Assembly (NCBI GenBank): GCA_030374765.1
Contig: JARGXX010000016.1
Span: 310,001-374,000 of the forward strand
DNA from: Agarophyton chilense
Taxonomy: Eukaryota > Rhodophyta > Florideophyceae > Gracilariales > Gracilariaceae
DNA: 64,000 nt
Reading direction: 5' to 3'
Below are positions 24,798 through 52,840 of this stretch, piece after piece. Both the position numbers and the translations under genes were made by a program. The stretch's first letter is position 1. The number at the start of each line of letters is the position of its first letter. The notes beneath the pieces were generated by a model. That model was not told where the DNA came from. It made no database searches and was given only the letters and a program-made list of their open reading frames with translations.

Positions 24798-26611
24798 ATG
24801 AAAATTCAAGTTGCTCTGCTGGCTCTGTTCATGGGAACATGGTCACGTTCCAACGCTCATAGGTACGGCATTGTCATTGTGTAGCAAAGCATGAAACTCA
24901 TGGTTTCACCTCTTTCAACATTGTACTTACAAGTTGTCTATTTACCTCTACTCCGACTGCGTGTTTTGGATACAGTTTCCTCACTAGTCCCCATCCCATG
25001 TCAACCATAGATGGATGCCGTATAGGTGGTACCGGAGGATTCATCGGCAACTGTCCAGGTCCATGCCCAAACTACAACATTGGAGCAGATGCAGACCCGT
25101 CAAACCCAACGGTTATATTCCAACGTGGTGGATACCACAGAGTAGTGTGGACGAGAAATAATCATGAAGGTGGTTTTGTTCGATGGACTATGGTACCGCT
25201 AAACAAGAAAGATTCCAAACTCTGGCACTCAAAGATGGCATTTCACTATAACTGCTGGAGTGCTGGCCGATTTAGCTGCAATGACTTCGATTTCCATCGC
25301 GACTGCAACTACGACAGACAGAACGAAGCGTATGCGAAAATGCTGTACATTCCACCTGTCTTTCCGGATGGAGACTATGTGCTTGGGTGGACCTGGTATG
25401 GTGGGGGAGTCGGCTTCGGCCACTTCGGGGATTACTACGACTGCGCTTATGTTAGGGTAAGCGGCGGAGAACCGGTTCAAGAATCGTACGTTCCAGAATT
25501 TGTCAGCGGAGGCGGAAGCTCCTATGACGATGGCTGTGAAGCAACAGTCGATGATCTGGGGATCTGCTGGAGAGAACCGTGCCTTCCAATGCGCAAAACA
25601 GAAAAGAGAGTTCCTGCGCCTTTCAAGGACGGCAAGAGCCCGGAACCAATTCTTGCAGAGTGGTACGGAGATGGAAAAAGCGCAAATCCTGCGTCAGTCG
25701 GTCTCTCCCGTATCTTGCTGGTAGATGCTAAGCAAGACAGGGTTCTTGAGGTTGACCTTAAAGAAATTATTCGTCTCAACAGTAATGACGAAATTTCTCT
25801 CTTGGCAGAGACAACTGGTGATGTTGAATACGTTGAATGGTACACTAATGGCAAAGTGAATGGAAAAGACTACTCCGCCCCGTACACAGTGGCAGGGGAT
25901 TTCAAAGAGGACATATATCCTTGGATGCACCCATTGTTCAATCGACGGATGCGAGTGTCCGTTAAGATTGTCGGAAAGGATGGAACTTTCTCATGGGGTA
26001 ACGTTGAGTTGAGGTTCAAAGAAAAAGGTGCGGGAGCATCGACTTTTCCAGGTCAATCTATTCATGACTACTTGGGATCCCATAATGCGCACGAGGAAGG
26101 AGATGGTGATGGTTCGGAAGAAAATACAGAATGGATTCAGGAACCTATCTCGGATGCGGACATTACTGGAACTCATGACACCGATTCGACCGTAATCGAA
26201 GAAAGTGAAACATCTCAAGTAGGCTCGCACACTGAGAACCCCCAAGATCACAACCAGGGCAGTGAGTCTTCATCGGAGGTTGCCCTCCAGCCACCAGCAG
26301 ATACCATGACGGAGTCTGGTACTTCTGAAGCACATGATTCATCAGGTAGTACTGGTGCTCCGCCGCAACCTGTCGCCGTGGAAGATCCAGAGTCTAATGG
26401 ATCTTTCGGTGGTTCGTCATCATCAACAAACTCTGGCTCATCTGTATCTGCAGGTGGTTCTTCATTGTTTCCAAACAGCATTTTCGGGAGAGGAGGTAGT
26501 GGCAGTGGTGCGGGATCGAAGCGAGGCCGGGCCACAGAAAGAACTGCTGCTTTCCTCGTTGTTGACGAGCGCGAAGATGCGATGAGAAAAGCCTACGGAC
26601 GGTTCGCTTAG
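24798..26611 (+). CDS. Secreted LPMO-like protein (candidate copper polysaccharide mono-oxygenase), two exons
   Basis: Exon 1 (24798-24862) encodes a signal peptide, MKIQVALLALFMGTWSRSNA, then His21. A 113-base GT-AG intron (24863-24975) follows, and exon 2 (24976-26611) keeps the frame; total 566 residues. Cleavage after Ala20 would expose His as residue 1 (HSFLTSPHP), as in lytic polysaccharide mono-oxygenases, where the N-terminal His and a second His form the copper brace. A second candidate is His85 in TRNNHEGGFVRW. The stretches PDGDYVLGWTWYGGG and GDYYDCAYVRVSGG resemble the last LPMO strands with an axial Tyr (175/176). Paired cysteines suggest disulfides. Next come an Ig-like segment (about 235-345, with VEYVEWYTNGKV and SAPYTV) and an acidic Ser/Gly-rich tail. 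The substrate is unknown; wall polysaccharides are an inference. The family is not assigned to a known AA class. Confidence 0.75.
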
Positions 26612-26719: not shown

Positions 26720-28111
26720 TTATGCATGGCATACTTTTACGTCCTTACACGACTCCATCGTCAGTTCTAAACGGCGGGCTTCAAGTGGTATTAAGAGCTC
26801 GTTCCCTGCAACAATTGCATGGGCGAGCATTCGTCCAAGATATGCATGATGTAGTAAACCCCGGGATCCCAAGCCCGTGAAGAGCCAACACGAGGTTCTT
26901 GTATCCGTTCCTGATAATTTACAGACAATGGGGATAGACCCAATTGCTGAACGAGGAGGCAAAGCTCGCGTGCCAGATGTTGTACCTACTACAGTGCAGT
27001 TTTCAAACATGCTTGGGCTTATTGCTTCCAAAGGTTTTTGCAACTCCGAAACAGCCCGCTGGGTATCTTGTTTGCAAAGCTCCTGCATAAAGCCTTCAGG
27101 GTCCTCTTCATCTCGTTGATGCTCGAAAGTTGCGCCTGCAACGAGATGTGATGATTTCTTCCGACCAAACAAGTCCGGAACAATGTATTTGCCACTAATG
27201 ACAGGTAGCTCTTGTGCGTATGCCCCTTCACATGGTTGCAAAATCAAATTCTGACCGCGACACAACTGAATAGGAACATGTTCCATTCCTTGTATACCTG
27301 GGATTGTAGCACCTGCGCAAACGACAACGGTGTCAAATGAGGATTCGCTTTCACCCAAGAGGTGTCCCACGTCATGCACACCCTCATTGCGCCACTCGAT
27401 TCGCCCTGACTTTTTGCACAGACTCCATAACGCTTGAAGGTATTCAGTTGTATTCACCACAGCAGCGTTACTCAATAGCACAGCTGGAACTTGGTGGTTA
27501 ACGTGTGGAAAACGGCTGGCAACCTCATGAGGCTCTAAAAACTGTACCTCCTTCGGAAAGCGGTTTGCCGCAATTCGAAAGTCGACTCGCTGCTGCTCTC
27601 GAACAGCAAGTCGAAGTAGACCCGGGAACGAAACGAGCGGGTTTTGAGAACAAGACTGAGCCTCCTTGACGAGATGTAGAGCTGCGTCAATAGCTTTCAC
27701 TGACTGCCACACCTTTCTCTTAACCCTTGGAGCAAATGGATGCAACAAGCCTGCAGCAACTGCACTGGCTCCTCCCTTACCAGGCATGTTGGGGTCAAAT
27801 ACTGTGAGATGCAAATCTGTGTGCGCGAAATTTCTCTTTCGTGCATAGCGAGCGGTTGAATGGAGAAGGTGGTAAGCAGTGGCCAAACCGGCTAGACCGC
27901 CACCGACAATGGCCACGCGGCGTGGATGAGGAACATCGGGAGGGGCAACATTTGAGCGCGGTGCTCGTCGACTCTTTGTTTTTGGGGCGAAGTGATGTAG
28001 CGTCAGAGTGGCTCCTTGGCGTGTTTGTAATGTGAGTGGTTGCGATACGGCGAAGGTTGGTAAAGAAAATATTGATCGATGAAACGCCATTCGAATGTGT
28101 TCATAGGCCAT
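26720..28111 (-). CDS. FAD-dependent oxidoreductase, DAO/glycine-oxidase-like
   Basis: From the ATG at 28111 the product is 463 residues; an ATG at 28090 is also possible. After about 60 residues of Ser/Thr/Arg-rich leader, compatible with organelle targeting, comes the FAD dinucleotide motif RRVAIVGGGLAGLATAYHLL. The DAO-type second motif follows (ASAVAAGLLHPFAPRVKRKVW). The C-terminal FAD-binding stretch is SCWLFTGLGSRGLLHHAYLG. This is the D-amino-acid-oxidase/glycine-oxidase/MnmC-C superfamily, which oxidises amines or amino acids with oxygen. The substrate cannot be told from sequence. A frame extension to 28129 begins at TTG. It converges on the LPMO-like gene, with only about 110 bases between stop codons. 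Confidence 0.85.
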   Translation of the reverse strand: MAYEHIRMAFHRSIFSLPTFAVSQPLTLQTRQGATLTLHHFAPKTKSRRAPRSNVAPPDVPHPRRVAIVGGGLAGLATAYHLLHSTARYARKRNFAHTDLHLTVFDPNMPGKGGASAVAAGLLHPFAPRVKRKVWQSVKAIDAALHLVKEAQSCSQNPLVSFPGLLRLAVREQQRVDFRIAANRFPKEVQFLEPHEVASRFPHVNHQVPAVLLSNAAVVNTTEYLQALWSLCKKSGRIEWRNEGVHDVGHLLGESESSFDTVVVCAGATIPGIQGMEHVPIQLCRGQNLILQPCEGAYAQELPVISGKYIVPDLFGRKKSSHLVAGATFEHQRDEEDPEGFMQELCKQDTQRAVSELQKPLEAISPSMFENCTVVGTTSGTRALPPRSAIGSIPIVCKLSGTDTRTSCWLFTGLGSRGLLHHAYLGRMLAHAIVAGNELLIPLEARRLELTMESCKDVKVCHA

Positions 28112-28469
28112 GTTGTCCCAGATAAACAATAGCGTTGCAGAGTTCGCTTCTGCCTCCTCACATTGCGTATGCCGTATTAACGGAGTTGCTAGCTAGAAAC
28201 GGAAAAGGAAGGTACCAAACCGCGATGAGCTTCGCTATCATTTAGTGGCACTTTCACTATGCTCTATGTGTCTGAGATGAAGTCTGATCTTAGAAGCGAT
28301 GGGAGTTCCACAAACATGAGCAGATCGGTATTGGATCAAGCGTTTTCGCGCCACCAGCAAGGCTGCAATACTGCACAGCACAGCACAGCACAGCACGGTA
28401 CGTACGGCACGGCAGTATGTACATCATGCATGATGATCTATCCGAGTGCAATGCGCATGTCGGGAAAAC
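28112..28469. other. Intergenic region with short pentanucleotide repeat
   Basis: About 360 bases lie between the oxidoreductase start and the tRNA-Pro terminator. They contain a small tandem ACAGC repeat (about 28373-28397). An open frame spanning the repeat looks like chance. Confidence 0.5.
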
Positions 28470-30295: not shown

Positions 30296-33200
30296 GATGA
30301 TTCTCGCCTGTTACTCGGCGGGCTCCTGTACTTGTCGAGTCTTTTGGTGTTGACAAAAAGAACAAGAGTCCTCCGAGTGTGGTACACTGTATGACAGGCT
30401 CTTTGAGTTTCGCTGCCTAAATCCTTGGGGGGGGGTTTTAATTTCAGATTCCGTCGATCGCAGTATTTGGTGCGCTACCCTAGGGAGAAACAAGGTTTTA
30501 ATCACCTCGTCTCCAAACGCTACGACGCTTTGAGCGCAGCGCAGTGTGACCTACTCCACTTTTGTCGTACTTCTTGCGTCCGGCAGGAGCCGAATCGACA
30601 GGACATCACTGGCGCCACGTTGTTAACCAATCAAACGGCGGGATTCAATATATGCTATTCAGCCAGTTTTGCCAATAAAGTTCGATAGACTGGTCGCCAA
30701 CCACCGCCTCATACTGCATCAAAAGCAGCGCGGCGTTCATCTTCAGAAGGCCCCGTCTTTTAGTAGGAACATCTTCCAAGGGGCCTTCTACAAGTAGAAA
30801 CATCTTCGAAGCATTTCTCAACACCATACCATACAACTGAGAAGTAGAAACGGCTTTAAACATGATCTTTGTCGAACAATAGGTTTAGATTATGGTCTGC
30901 ATATGGGAACGTTGGACATTCCCCAAAATCTGTACCCCGCTGGTGGTACTGTTCTCAGATGTTCTGCCACCCCCCTCCACAGGCACCGTATGGCTGGGTT
31001 CAGGATATTCCTGCACCCTCTCACTTACAGCTTACAAGTAACAAAGAGTGTGACTCTTTCGTCCCTTAAAAATCTTACAAGCTTTGAAACCCATTACTTG
31101 CACGGCTTTCCGAATTACGAGATAAATTGTTAAGATTTAGCAATCAGAACGGTTCAATTTGAAATAGAAATAACCTGACCAAAAATAGTCCTAGTGGTGT
31201 CAAAAACGCACAAAACATTCAACAGAGGAAACAAAAAGACCTCAAGGCTTTGTTCGAAACGTAAGAATCTCGCACTCACTTGCTTCTCGTTGACATCTTA
31301 ACAAAGCGAAGGCATCGCCAACAGCGCGTTTGCGCCTTTTGTCTGGTTTTTTAAGCACATGCATCAACCTAACTAGCTTCAATACACTGTCTGTGCCGCA
31401 ACAGAGCTGCGAGTGGCTTGTTGTCATCACCGTACTCCTTTAAGAGAAGCTAAACGGTGTTGCAACAAAGTGACACCGGCTACTCGTATCTCTTTTGATG
31501 ATTCGACTGTCATTTTTCTTGTCACTGTGACTCGTATCGAGTCCCCAACAGAAACGAAGACGATTGTCTGACGGTTTCAATAAGTGTATTTTTCATTTTC
31601 GCCAACTAAATTGCGAACCTTTCTCTGCGATTGTTTTGAATAGTTTTTGCGTCCCGTATAGGGGCTCGAAAAGGTCTTTATTTCTATAACACCCTGTTGA
31701 TCGTATGGTGTTCTTGGAGAACCTTCTCAAACTTTGTCAAAGATGTTGTAGCTTTCTCATCGGACAAATTTATAGGCTAAACTTTGTGATATACAACTGC
31801 GTTGCTTGCACAAAGGCGTTGCGAGCAACGTAAATCGTCGGTTCCAGCGTTCTTCGTCTGTGGTTTTTGATCATTAAAGCGTATGTTCTGGAGAAACGCC
31901 TTGTATATTGGCCACAGGCTCACATCTTTGAAGCTTTTTTGCGGTCCAGCGAGTTATTCGCGATACCGGGCCATACTAAGCTTTATTTTGAAAGTCATGT
32001 TGGAATTGGGGAACTCCTTGCTAAGAAGCAAGGCGTCGCGAACTTCTTTAGTTTCAGATTTGAATGTCTCATTGATGTATGAATCGCATGGTTGAAGAAA
32101 ATGAGAGATGTTGACTGGCAGTTAAATCACGTGGATACTATTCTCTTGGCATATTGAAATCCATTCCGTTCCTTTTCGAGAACTGTGTCCATCTATGAGA
32201 ATAAAAACAATCTTATCGTGATGAACACGTTTGCGAAGAAAGGAAACAAATTAATCCATTAAAAAGGCAAGATTTTTGTGATCCATAGAACCTTTTGGAG
32301 TAAATTTGACGGCAGCCTCGTTCGCTATTCAGCGTTGCTTGCCAAAGCCAGTGGTATTTACAGTGCGTTTCAAAAACATATCCTTTCCTAAAACCGGGCA
32401 AAAAATGGCGTTTTCTGTACTGTAGAGCGAATTTCTCACCGAGAAAAACCTTTTCAAGTAAAAAACCTTATTTCTTAAACATATCCTTTATACAATATAG
32501 AGCTCCATTATGACTTGTGTACCGCCTTTATCTCGCCAAAAATATATGAAAAGTATTAGAATGGACCTCAAAGGCATGATTTCAACTTTTATAGCGCAAA
32601 AACAAATAAAAATCCCAAAAACAAACAGTTATTACAGAACACTCTCTTTGGTATGAATTCAAGCGATGTTTGAGCCATACCGCATTCTTTCTAACAAAAA
32701 ACGCGTGTAAGTAAGCTTTATCTGTTCTGTGATACTTCATCGTGCAAAAATAATTGAAATAAAACAGTATTTGAATGTAAAAAGTTCTTAAATATGACGC
32801 AAATTAAAAATTAAAAATTGATTAAACTATACAACAACAAAAGAATCTTCTTTTGAAAATGCACCATAAACGCAAACGTGCGTTGTGTTCCTCAGAAAAG
32901 CCTCTTTAAAAAAAAGAGTATGAAAAAAAAGATAATGTTTTGGACGAAAACTGTTAATATGAACGGACCAGGTTTCTTTAAATTCTATTAGTATGATAAT
33001 GGCAAAAAAAAGTTGAGTTTTGTAAAAATGTTCTTTGGTTATAGATCTAAGATGGTTTTAGATGGCATATTTGAAGTAACATTAACTAAAATAGCGTTTT
33101 TAATTGCTTTAATGACTTAGAAACGTTATGATAAAGTGGTAGAAAGATTTGTGCTACTTTATTCCTACTTTACGTATGAATTGATTTATTAGTTTTAGCA

Positions 33201-33591
33201 AGATAGTGCGCTTATAAAACAGTCAGATGTTTAGAAACAGTACATGAATGGTTTAAATATGACTGATACGGATCTTTCATGACGAATTTCCAATGTTCAG
33301 TTTATTGAAAACACCAATGGAGTGCTAGATTAGATGATTTATGGGCAAATTAGACAGTTCAGTACAGTTTCTTATTCGAAAGTTTGTATCACAAATTACT
33401 GGGACAAAATAACGTTTAATTTAATTCATTTTTTATTGAATAAATGTTAACACACTCTGTAAGTGTCAGTAGGGTTAGAGAGGCGAAAACAAACTACTGA
33501 AAGCGCGCTGTAGAGAATATGGCTGACGAAAGGATATGTTTTTGAAACAGTTTTTTGACTTGATATTTTTCATGTGTTGTTTTTATTGAGT
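30296..33591. other. AT-rich region without recognisable genes
   Basis: Beyond the last island gene the base composition becomes visibly AT-rich and open frames are short. A G run lies at 30426-30434. A 9-base inverted repeat (GAAGGCCCC / GGGGCCTTC) lies within 30745-30790. No protein motif, tRNA or LTR end was recognised. It probably consists of old, eroded mobile DNA. Confidence 0.5.
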
Positions 33592-34414
33592 TTACTGTAG
33601 TCGAAAAGGCATTTTACGAAATATTTGTGCAAGGGATATGTTTTTGAAACAGACTTTATTTGGAAGTAAAAAAGCTTTTTCTTTATCAATCGGATGCATC
33701 CAAGCTGGGACTGTCTTCTTACCTGCTGCTATTACAAACTGTGGAGCGAGATAATCTGAAGCAGATTCCGCTATCACAGCTGTTTGGTATTTTTCATTTT
33801 CTTTGAGGTTGTGGCGCTTGCCCAAAAATCGTCCCTCGGATGAACTGAAAACTTTCGTGTGCTTACCGTGCTTCACATTGACACTGGTTTCATCTACATT
33901 TCATATATGGTCTGGGCCATGAAATAGAGTTGGTTCAATGGCCTGAAAGTCCTCTGGTGCTTCCTTCAGAGTCCTCACGTGTTGAAGGGTATCACCTTCG
34001 AATTATTTATGACACAAATGCTTCGCGTTGCGGAAGGTTAAGCGTCAATTTCTAGCCTGGAAGACACGTAATGCGTCACCAGAAGGTATTCCATTTCGAT
34101 AACTAACAAGGCGATCTGCTGTGATTTCTTCCATCATAATCTTCATAGTGTTTGCATCTAGCGCGATTTTTTCCGCAGCTATCATTGCGCCTTCAACCAT
34201 TGCGTTTCCTCCAGATGGTGATAGCAGAGTACGCCTACCTCGTGTATGCTTTATTGGATCAGGAAGTGTGTTTATTTCTTCCGTTTCCTTGGTTTTGTGT
34301 GCAGCTAGAACGCCGGTGGTTGTTTTCCATGATAAAGGACCGTGAGACGCAGCTTCGCGTGGTCTTTTGCCCGTCTTCAAGAGTTTTAACGCTTCTACAC
34401 GGTTTTTTTCTGTA
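33592..34414 (-). pseudogene. pogo/CENP-B-like DDE transposase relic
   Basis: One minus-strand frame can be followed across the region with three in-frame stop codons (near 34044, 34000 and 33906). It starts with an HTH_psq-like stretch (EKNRVEALKLLKTGKRPREA). It continues through PSGDALRVFQARN, and reaches the transposase core marker NVDETSVNVKHGKHTKVFSS, which carries the first catalytic Asp, followed by FLGKRHNLKENEKYQT and PQFVIAAGKK. The later catalytic Asp residues were not found, so the 3' part is lost. CENP-B/pogo-type transposases cut and paste DNA transposons. This copy is dead. No terminal inverted repeats were identified. Confidence 0.7.
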
Positions 34415-51522: not shown

Positions 51523-52840
51523 TTACGCCTGCAGGAGTTGCTCGATAGTTATAGGGAGCAGCTCTTTTTCTTCTGGGTTTATCACGTTAACCTGAGGTGG
51601 TGTCAAATGGGGCGTTACTGTATCCCAGTCAAACAGGTAGACTTCGTTCTCCTTTACATCAGGATCATCCGTTTTGACCTTTCCCATAAGATCATTCATT
51701 TCCGTATAGCCCTGAGGTCTATCATCCGTAAAGGGGGTAGGAATGAGATCGTCCAATGGCGTGTCATCAGATCCGTCGGTAATGATTCGCGAGACGGCAT
51801 CTGCTTCCTGGTGCTTGATGCCAGACCTATAGGATATATCGTAGTCATACTCTGACAGCCTGAGGCGCCAATGGGGGAGGTGAATTGATGCATCCGTCAT
51901 ATTAAGTATCCAGCGGAGTGAATCGTGGTCTGTCATTATGGTAAACCTAGTTCCCTCGAGGTATGGACGTAGTGTCAATACGGACCATACGATGGCTAGA
52001 CATTCCTTTTCGGTGGTACTATAGTTGCGCTCCGTGCTGGTGAGTATCCAATAGGTCGATAGTCGTTCGCTGACTCCTGTTCCAGTAGCAGTGCACAACC
52101 CACTTGGACATCAGAGGCATCTGTGTCCAGGACAAAGACCTATTGGGCTTTGGTAAAGCCAATATAGGTGGGTTCAACAATTTGTCCTTTAGGACCTGAA
52201 ATGCCTCGTACTGGTCGTCGCTAAGGCATTCAAACTCCGAAGGTGTTCCCTTTTTCAGCATTGCGTTGAGAGGGGCCGAGATTTTAGCAAACCCTTCGAC
52301 GAACCGTCGGTAAACATTGCACAAGCTCACCAAGGATCGTTTTTCCGTGTGGGTTCTGGGAGATTTAGCCTGGCGGAAAGCATTCGTGGTCCGTATGGCT
52401 ACCTTTAGCTTTCCTGGGAGGAAGACGTGACCGAGATAGTCCACCGAGGCCTGGAAGAAGGCGCATTTGCCGAGTTTCAGTGTTACTCCAGCGTCCTGTA
52501 GGATTTTTGGCACCGTCTTCACGTGGCGAAGGTGATTCTTTACGGTCCGTGAGAAGATTAGGAAGGCATCCAAATAGACCAGGGCGAATTTCCATTTGAC
52601 TCTGGACATTATAATGTCCATAATCCGTTGGAAGGATGCTGGCGCATTCTTTAAACCAAAGGGCACACAAGTAAATCTGAACTGACCTTCATGGTTAGTG
52701 AAGGTTATCAGCGCTCTCGCATCTTCGGCCGAAGAGATTTGCCAATATCCCGAGTTAGTGTCCAGTGTGGTAAATACGGCTGCTTCACGTAATGAATCTG
52801 GACAGTCATCCATACGGGGTATGGGGTATGACTCCCTCAT
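51523..52840 (-). pseudogene. Gypsy reverse transcriptase / RNase H with altered catalytic motif
   Basis: RT (52840-52019) shows YPIPRMDDCPDSL, motif A FTTLDTNSGYWQI, FTCVPFGLKNAPASFQRIM, and motif C as YLDAFLIFS, in which the second catalytic Asp of YLDD is Ala. The fingers/thumb parts continue with LKLGKCAFFQASVDYLGHVF and NVYRRFVEGFAKISAPLNAML. RNase H (52098-51523) has STTEKECLAIVWSVLTLRPY, TIMTDHDSLRWIL and the ending IKHQEADAVSR. A frameshift near 52090 separates RT from RNase H. The Asp-to-Ala change alone should abolish polymerase activity. Confidence 0.87.

Follow-up and report, generated by a model that had tools for sequence, protein, structure and literature searches.

LPMOs are best known for degrading the biomass of other organisms; those of family AA11 are fungal and known mostly from chitin, and those of family AA15 (Pfam LPMO_10) are found in animals, oomycetes, and algae. 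A gene of the red alga Agarophyton chilense raises the question of whether an enzyme of this kind could be secreted by a wall-building organism, to which family it would belong, and on which polymers it might act. The window, i.e., the whole stretch of 64,000 nt that was analyzed, covers positions 310,001–374,000 of the forward strand of contig JARGXX010000016.1 (assembly GCA_030374765.1), and all coordinates of the gene refer to it. A phycobilisome linker gene nearby agrees with a red alga as the source. The surroundings further include a FAD-dependent oxidoreductase gene (DAO, E = 1.6e-36; 26720–28129, minus strand) convergent with the LPMO-like gene, a reverse transcriptase fragment of a mobile element (RVT_1, E = 3.7e-24; 52019–52840, minus strand), and a segment at 32001–34000 with a G+C content of 0.345 vs. 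0.454 before and 0.408 after it (2-kb windows). In the 566-residue product, a signal peptide precedes a domain of 177 residues, which is followed by a Cys linker, an Ig-like module, and finally a tail of 194 residues; the gene was read as follows:

24798–26611, plus strand: whole gene, from the ATG at 24798 to the stop codon at 26609–26611, with one intron and a 566-aa product
24798–24857, plus strand: signal peptide of 20 residues, MKIQVALLALFMGTWSRSNA, in exon 1, with a hydrophobic core, Ser at −3 and Ala at −1
24858–24860, plus strand: codon of the predicted mature His1 (His21 of the precursor), putative first brace residue, in exon 1
24863–24975, plus strand: GT-AG intron of 113 bases, phase 2, splitting the codon of Ser2 (donor after 24862, acceptor before 24976)
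24858–25501, plus strand: LPMO-like domain, mature residues 1–177, with the intron 24863–24975 inside
25163–25165, plus strand: codon of His65 (precursor His85) in NNHEGGFVR, predicted second brace His, invariant in the family alignment and falling on the second AA11 His when the profiles are aligned end to end
25433–25435, plus strand: codon of the putative axial Tyr, Tyr155 (precursor Tyr175), three residues before a Cys and adjoining the invariant Asp154
25535–25585, plus strand: Cys linker, CEATVDDLGICWREPCL, of the CxnGxCxxEPC type
25697–26026, plus strand: Ig-like accessory module, from Big_7 and module profile matches
26027–26608, plus strand: low-complexity acidic Ser/Thr/Gly tail of 194 residues, from composition

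The domain is present at no fewer than 21 places of the same genome (tblastn, E ≤ 1e-3; 79.8 Mb, 135 contigs). The window gene and 18 paralogues (L002–L019) make up the 19 loci at which the gene start looks intact, and these represent 17 distinct proteins, as L005 is identical to L006 and L018 to L019. Both identical pairs lie in opposite orientation, the former about 10 kb apart (C135, ~795–809 kb) and the latter about 56 kb apart (C3, ~1.226–1.286 Mb), and are either recent inverted duplications or assembly copies. Two further copies are damaged, one without its 5′ part and close to L007 and L008 (L020, C75:1420500–1424000), the other with frame breaks (L021, C95:171800–174800). Identity to the window protein was 36–48% in an alignment of 16 proteins, in which 28 columns were invariant, including His65, Arg71, His86, Asp154, and Cys158; His1 was invariant among the 13 proteins aligned from the N-terminus. 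The second His was found in 19/19 loci (18 by pattern, and L013 once a GT-AG intron was removed by eye), and the residue three before the Cys was Tyr in 17, Phe in L010, and Gln in L015, i.e., aromatic at the axial place in 18 of the 19. The domain of one subgroup (L014, L016, and L017) was 207 residues long, with insertions at several places, vs. 165–181 in the others with His1; L012, L015, and L018 were placed with this subgroup by likeness, and an apparent intron about 13 residues downstream of the position seen in the window gene was found in L012, L015, L018, and L019. The C-termini varied across the family, being Cys-rich in L014–L017, and none of the open frames that were read ended in a strongly hydrophobic tail: the highest mean over 15 residues was 1.58, in L015, and the frames of L012 and L018 possibly stop at an intron.

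According to the preliminary description, a 113-base GT-AG intron joins a signal peptide to a domain whose first mature residue would be His, and both parts were borne out. If the intron is read through, the frame of exon 1 ends at a stop codon just behind HRYGIVIV, so splicing is required for the frame to enter the domain, and in L002 an intron of 109 bases occupies the same position and phase. The His following the signal peptide is independent of the splice, because its codon lies within exon 1. The start Met and the cleavage point of the signal peptide were placed by eye and checked by hydrophobicity and by the residues at −3 and −1. At all 19 loci with an intact-looking start, the signal peptide is, as judged by sequence rule, directly followed by His; the leader is hydrophobic (best 8-residue mean 2.4–3.5), the residue at −1 is Ala, Gly, Ser, or Cys, and that at −3 is Ala, Ser, Thr, or Val. 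Since the L002 intron matches and the His pattern recurs at every one of these loci, intron and signal-peptide-then-His order are beyond chance. The predicted cleavage, which would leave His1 as the N-terminus, is strongly supported at the level of the sequence.

The order of motifs noticed earlier (His21, then His85 in NNHEGG, then Tyr175/176) was reproduced with the same numbering on the spliced product. Behind the domain, a motif similar to the Cys linker occurs in 16/16 paralogues scanned, with EKC instead of EPC in L010. The Ig-like segment previously pointed out was recognized by Big_7 at E = 0.015, below the cut-off, and by a module profile whose best PDB match was a chitodextrinase (E = 9.7e-12). 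The long acidic Ser/Gly tail was likewise recovered, with Ser + Thr amounting to 25%, Gly to 14%, Asp + Glu to 16%, and Lys + Arg to 5% of its 194 residues; this fits an LPMO, because PMC8615602 describes disordered Ser/Thr-rich C-terminal regions as common in these enzymes. A single-sequence AlphaFold2 model of the domain, in which the Tyr encoded by the unspliced frame stood for His1, reached a mean pLDDT of 30.4, too low to be of use.

The initial judgement that the protein falls outside the standard AA9 and AA10 types agrees with the HMM searches, which were run with Pfam on the whole window protein and with Pfam and NCBIfam on 16 family domains: no model reached its cut-off, and neither the AA9 nor the LPMO_10 model of Pfam matched above it. 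At E ≤ 1, LPMO_10 (the AA15/AA10 model) matched 0/16 members, and the AA9 model PF03443 matched one, L011 (residues 46–171, E = 0.0022, 18.4 bits vs. a cut-off of 27.8). The NCBIfam model SCE4755 (polysaccharide monooxygenase-like) matched 1/16 members at E = 0.031 and was left out of the evidence, and weak Pfam matches to DUF7492, TMEM18, Nis1, Alph_Pro_TM, EGF_BRNP1-3, and FLYWCH were judged to be chance. When run against the whole genome, the AA9 (E ≤ 1), DUF7492, and SCE4755 models gave no match, which says little, as the control genomes gave none either.

A search of the PDB (177,635 distinct sequences) with the family profile returned 12 matches at E ≤ 10, all weak, of which 10 were LPMOs belonging solely to AA11 (7p3u, 9exj, and 4mah) and AA9 (seven chains); the other two were PscG chains. 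The best match was an AA11 chain at E = 0.028, so that similarity to AA11 did not attain a significant E-value. The ten LPMO matches are not independent, because the AA9 chains 9d0z, 9bjq, 9bjt, and 9bjs look like near-identical variants of a single protein. All ten lie in profile positions 119–175, the stretch holding the axial Tyr, and in the two alignments viewed DYYDC was set on YMNC of the axial Tyr strand. No PDB match was obtained with the N-terminal half of the profile, so the LPMO link comes mainly from the C-terminal strands; with the window protein as a single sequence, no AA11 chain was obtained at E ≤ 10.

Profile-to-profile comparison (hhalign) with reference profiles that are thin (3 sequences for AA11, 4 for AA9, and 6 for AA15) gave the family scores of 43.2 with AA11 (probability 86.7), 29.9 with AA9, and 29.0 with AA15, over local matches of 46, 15, and 17 columns, respectively. 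None of 300 column shuffles per target reached these scores (highest 24.0), and background controls, i.e., reversed profiles and Ig modules, scored 9.5–16.8 with the family. The known families scored 28.4 (AA11-AA9), 18.4 (AA11-AA15), and 19.9 (AA15-AA9) against one another, and the LPMO-like family thus scores nearer to AA11 than AA9, AA11, and AA15 score to each other. End to end, the AA11 alignment (probability 84.6) brought His1 onto His1, His65 onto the second His, and Tyr155 onto the axial Tyr, all in register. The corresponding AA15 alignment was poor (probability 0.9), the axial strand pairing, the second His being one column off, and His1 remaining unpaired, and no end-to-end alignment formed with AA9.

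Likeness to AA11 extends to an N-terminus of the form HxxMxxPxP, a second His followed by Gly-Gly, and a Tyr three before the Cys of the axial strand, in addition to the best profile score among AA11, AA9, and AA15. The differences are that the family has three Cys in its first 32 residues, whereas 4mah has one, that it reads NNHxGGFxR where AA11 has HGGGSC, that it has the invariant Arg71 and His86 and an Ig-like module, and that its host is a red alga rather than a fungus. With AA15 it shares the NHxG(Y/F)-type second His, an acidic residue beside the aromatic three before the Cys, and the type of Ig-like module that follows five of the genome's LPMO_10 domains; the AA15-type domains that were read, however, are about 100 residues longer and have a different Cys pattern. 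An axial Tyr strand is also found in fungal AA9 (PF03443), the Pfam model of which L011 matches over most of the domain, below the cut-off, but L011 was the one member in 16 to match at E ≤ 1.

The LPMO_10 model matches 13 other places in the genome (L022–L029 and five more), none of which is a locus of the LPMO-like family. Those that were read start with HG after the leader, followed by a PRQRG- or PPQRG-type motif; some bear Ser/Thr- or acid-rich tails, and five bear an Ig-like module. L023, the one LPMO_10 gene tried against the PDB, had a sole match to 5msz, an AA15 of Thermobia (E = 3.4e-5). The Ig-like module of the window gene was found at 8 genomic places at E ≤ 0.01, all in the LPMO-like family. 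The L024 module, from an AA15-type gene, had 6 matches, namely L024, four further genes of the LPMO_10 set, and L011 from the LPMO-like family (E = 0.0012). Compared as profiles, the two module types scored 68.6 (probability 97.6) vs. at most 21.0 in 200 shuffles, and at least 11 family copies carry an Ig-like module of the type also present behind AA15-type domains. The joint module profile matched, in the PDB, the chitodextrinase noted above, a module of a GH9 enzyme (5.1e-10), titin in third place (7.5e-8), and then many Ig domains; the module is therefore Ig-like and goes with glycan-cutting enzymes, which is no proof of glycan binding.

The LPMO-like character first proposed for this protein is supported by His1 and the second His at 19/19 loci, with an aromatic axial residue in 18, by 10 LPMOs among 12 PDB matches, by the brace register with AA11, and by the module shared with the AA15-type set. 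The gene probably encodes a secreted LPMO of a family unrecognized by the models searched, with a histidine brace, a wall-glycan cutting activity, and attachment to the wall, and the best reading of the family from its sequences is that of a new LPMO family, nearest to AA11 and probably acting on wall glycans. Cleavage of the signal peptide would turn His1 into the N-terminus, and a single copper ion would be held in a T-shaped brace by the amino group and ring of His1 together with His65, as suggested by the alignment to AA11 and AA15, which would also place Tyr155 on the axial side of the copper with Asp154 beside it. Given a reductant plus O2 or H2O2, a hydrogen could then be abstracted from a sugar at the copper site, as expected from the superfamily, and a glycosidic bond of a wall polysaccharide would break. 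The Cys linker, the Ig-like module, and the tail may retain the enzyme at the wall or close to it, and its most likely role would be to remodel or loosen the extracellular matrix of the alga itself. As a substrate, cellulose is the first candidate, a guess that we make with considerable doubt, with chitin from intruding organisms and sulphated galactans as further options.

The brace could also belong to a copper protein without polysaccharide-cutting activity, e.g., a chaperone or uptake protein like the fungal X325/BIM1. According to PMC10952591, such LPMO-like, secreted copper proteins with an N-terminal His exist, and the copper of X325 has an Asp ligand, which recalls the invariant Asp154 adjoining the predicted axial Tyr. 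Yet the AA15-type proteins of this genome carry Glu at the same place, so that an acidic residue there is no mark of X325. BIM1 is GPI-anchored (PMC10952591), whereas the family frames were read without a strongly hydrophobic tail and many copies bear instead an Ig-like module, of the AA15-associated type in the 11 or more mentioned above; nineteen copies are also, in our judgement, many for a chaperone. We consider this explanation unlikely.

Conversion of a divergent relative into a structural or glycan-binding wall protein, with the LPMO fold and the N-terminal His retained, would be in line with the long tail and Ig-like module of the window protein and with the variation of the axial residue among the 19 loci (Tyr, Phe, or Gln). 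A loss of catalysis should, however, release His1, the second His, and Asp154, and their retention (19/19 for both His, 16/16 aligned proteins for Asp154) at 36–48% identity to the window protein counts against such a role, which appears quite improbable. The weak E-values, the absence of any model above cut-off, and the lack of PDB matches for the N-terminal half would suit a chance likeness, in which a secreted beta-rich family has a His after its signal peptide for some other reason, but ten of the 12 PDB matches are LPMOs, no shuffle (0/300 for each of the three LPMO families) reaches the observed scores, and Ig modules and reversed profiles stay at 9.5–16.8 vs. 43.2 for AA11; we regard a chance likeness as very improbable indeed. 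A secreted LPMO remains the reading that we prefer.

Relatives outside the alga were searched for in prokaryote genome contigs (with the family alignment) and in viral contigs (with the family alignment and L017), and none was convincing. Among phage records the window domain had no match, L017 had one that was dismissed (E = 0.6), and the AA15-type L026 had five from one phage group (E 0.06–0.2 or weaker), dismissed as well; as L026 gave dismissed matches only, the phage, viral, and prokaryote searches come without a strong positive control. The LPMO families are given as AA9-AA11 and AA13-AA18 in a paper of 2026 (PMC13431639), and among the openly licensed papers listed, judged by title and opening lines of the abstract, none described this red-algal family. 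Rhodophyta are already listed for AA15 LPMOs (PMC5823890), and LPMOs in red algae as such are thus already known. With no literature description and no convincing prokaryote, viral, or phage relative, the novelty appears to lie in the family, which on profile comparison with AA9, AA11, and AA15 appears to be new.

Oxidative self-cutting has been proposed for arthropods and their chitin (PMC5823890). The corresponding proposal for the alga, a new LPMO family of about 19 loci that, beside an AA15-type set, oxidatively remodels its own wall (cellulose or sulphated galactans), is in our view evenly balanced between being right and being wrong. If true, a wall-building photosynthetic red alga would turn oxidative cutting on itself, next to its AA15-type genes, and there would be an LPMO family centered on red algae and possibly active on agar- or carrageenan-type polymers. 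A sizeable LPMO-like family goes unrecognized by Pfam and NCBIfam, and its members would then be candidate enzymes for red seaweed polymers and would provide an explanation, open to testing, for the loosening of red algal walls.
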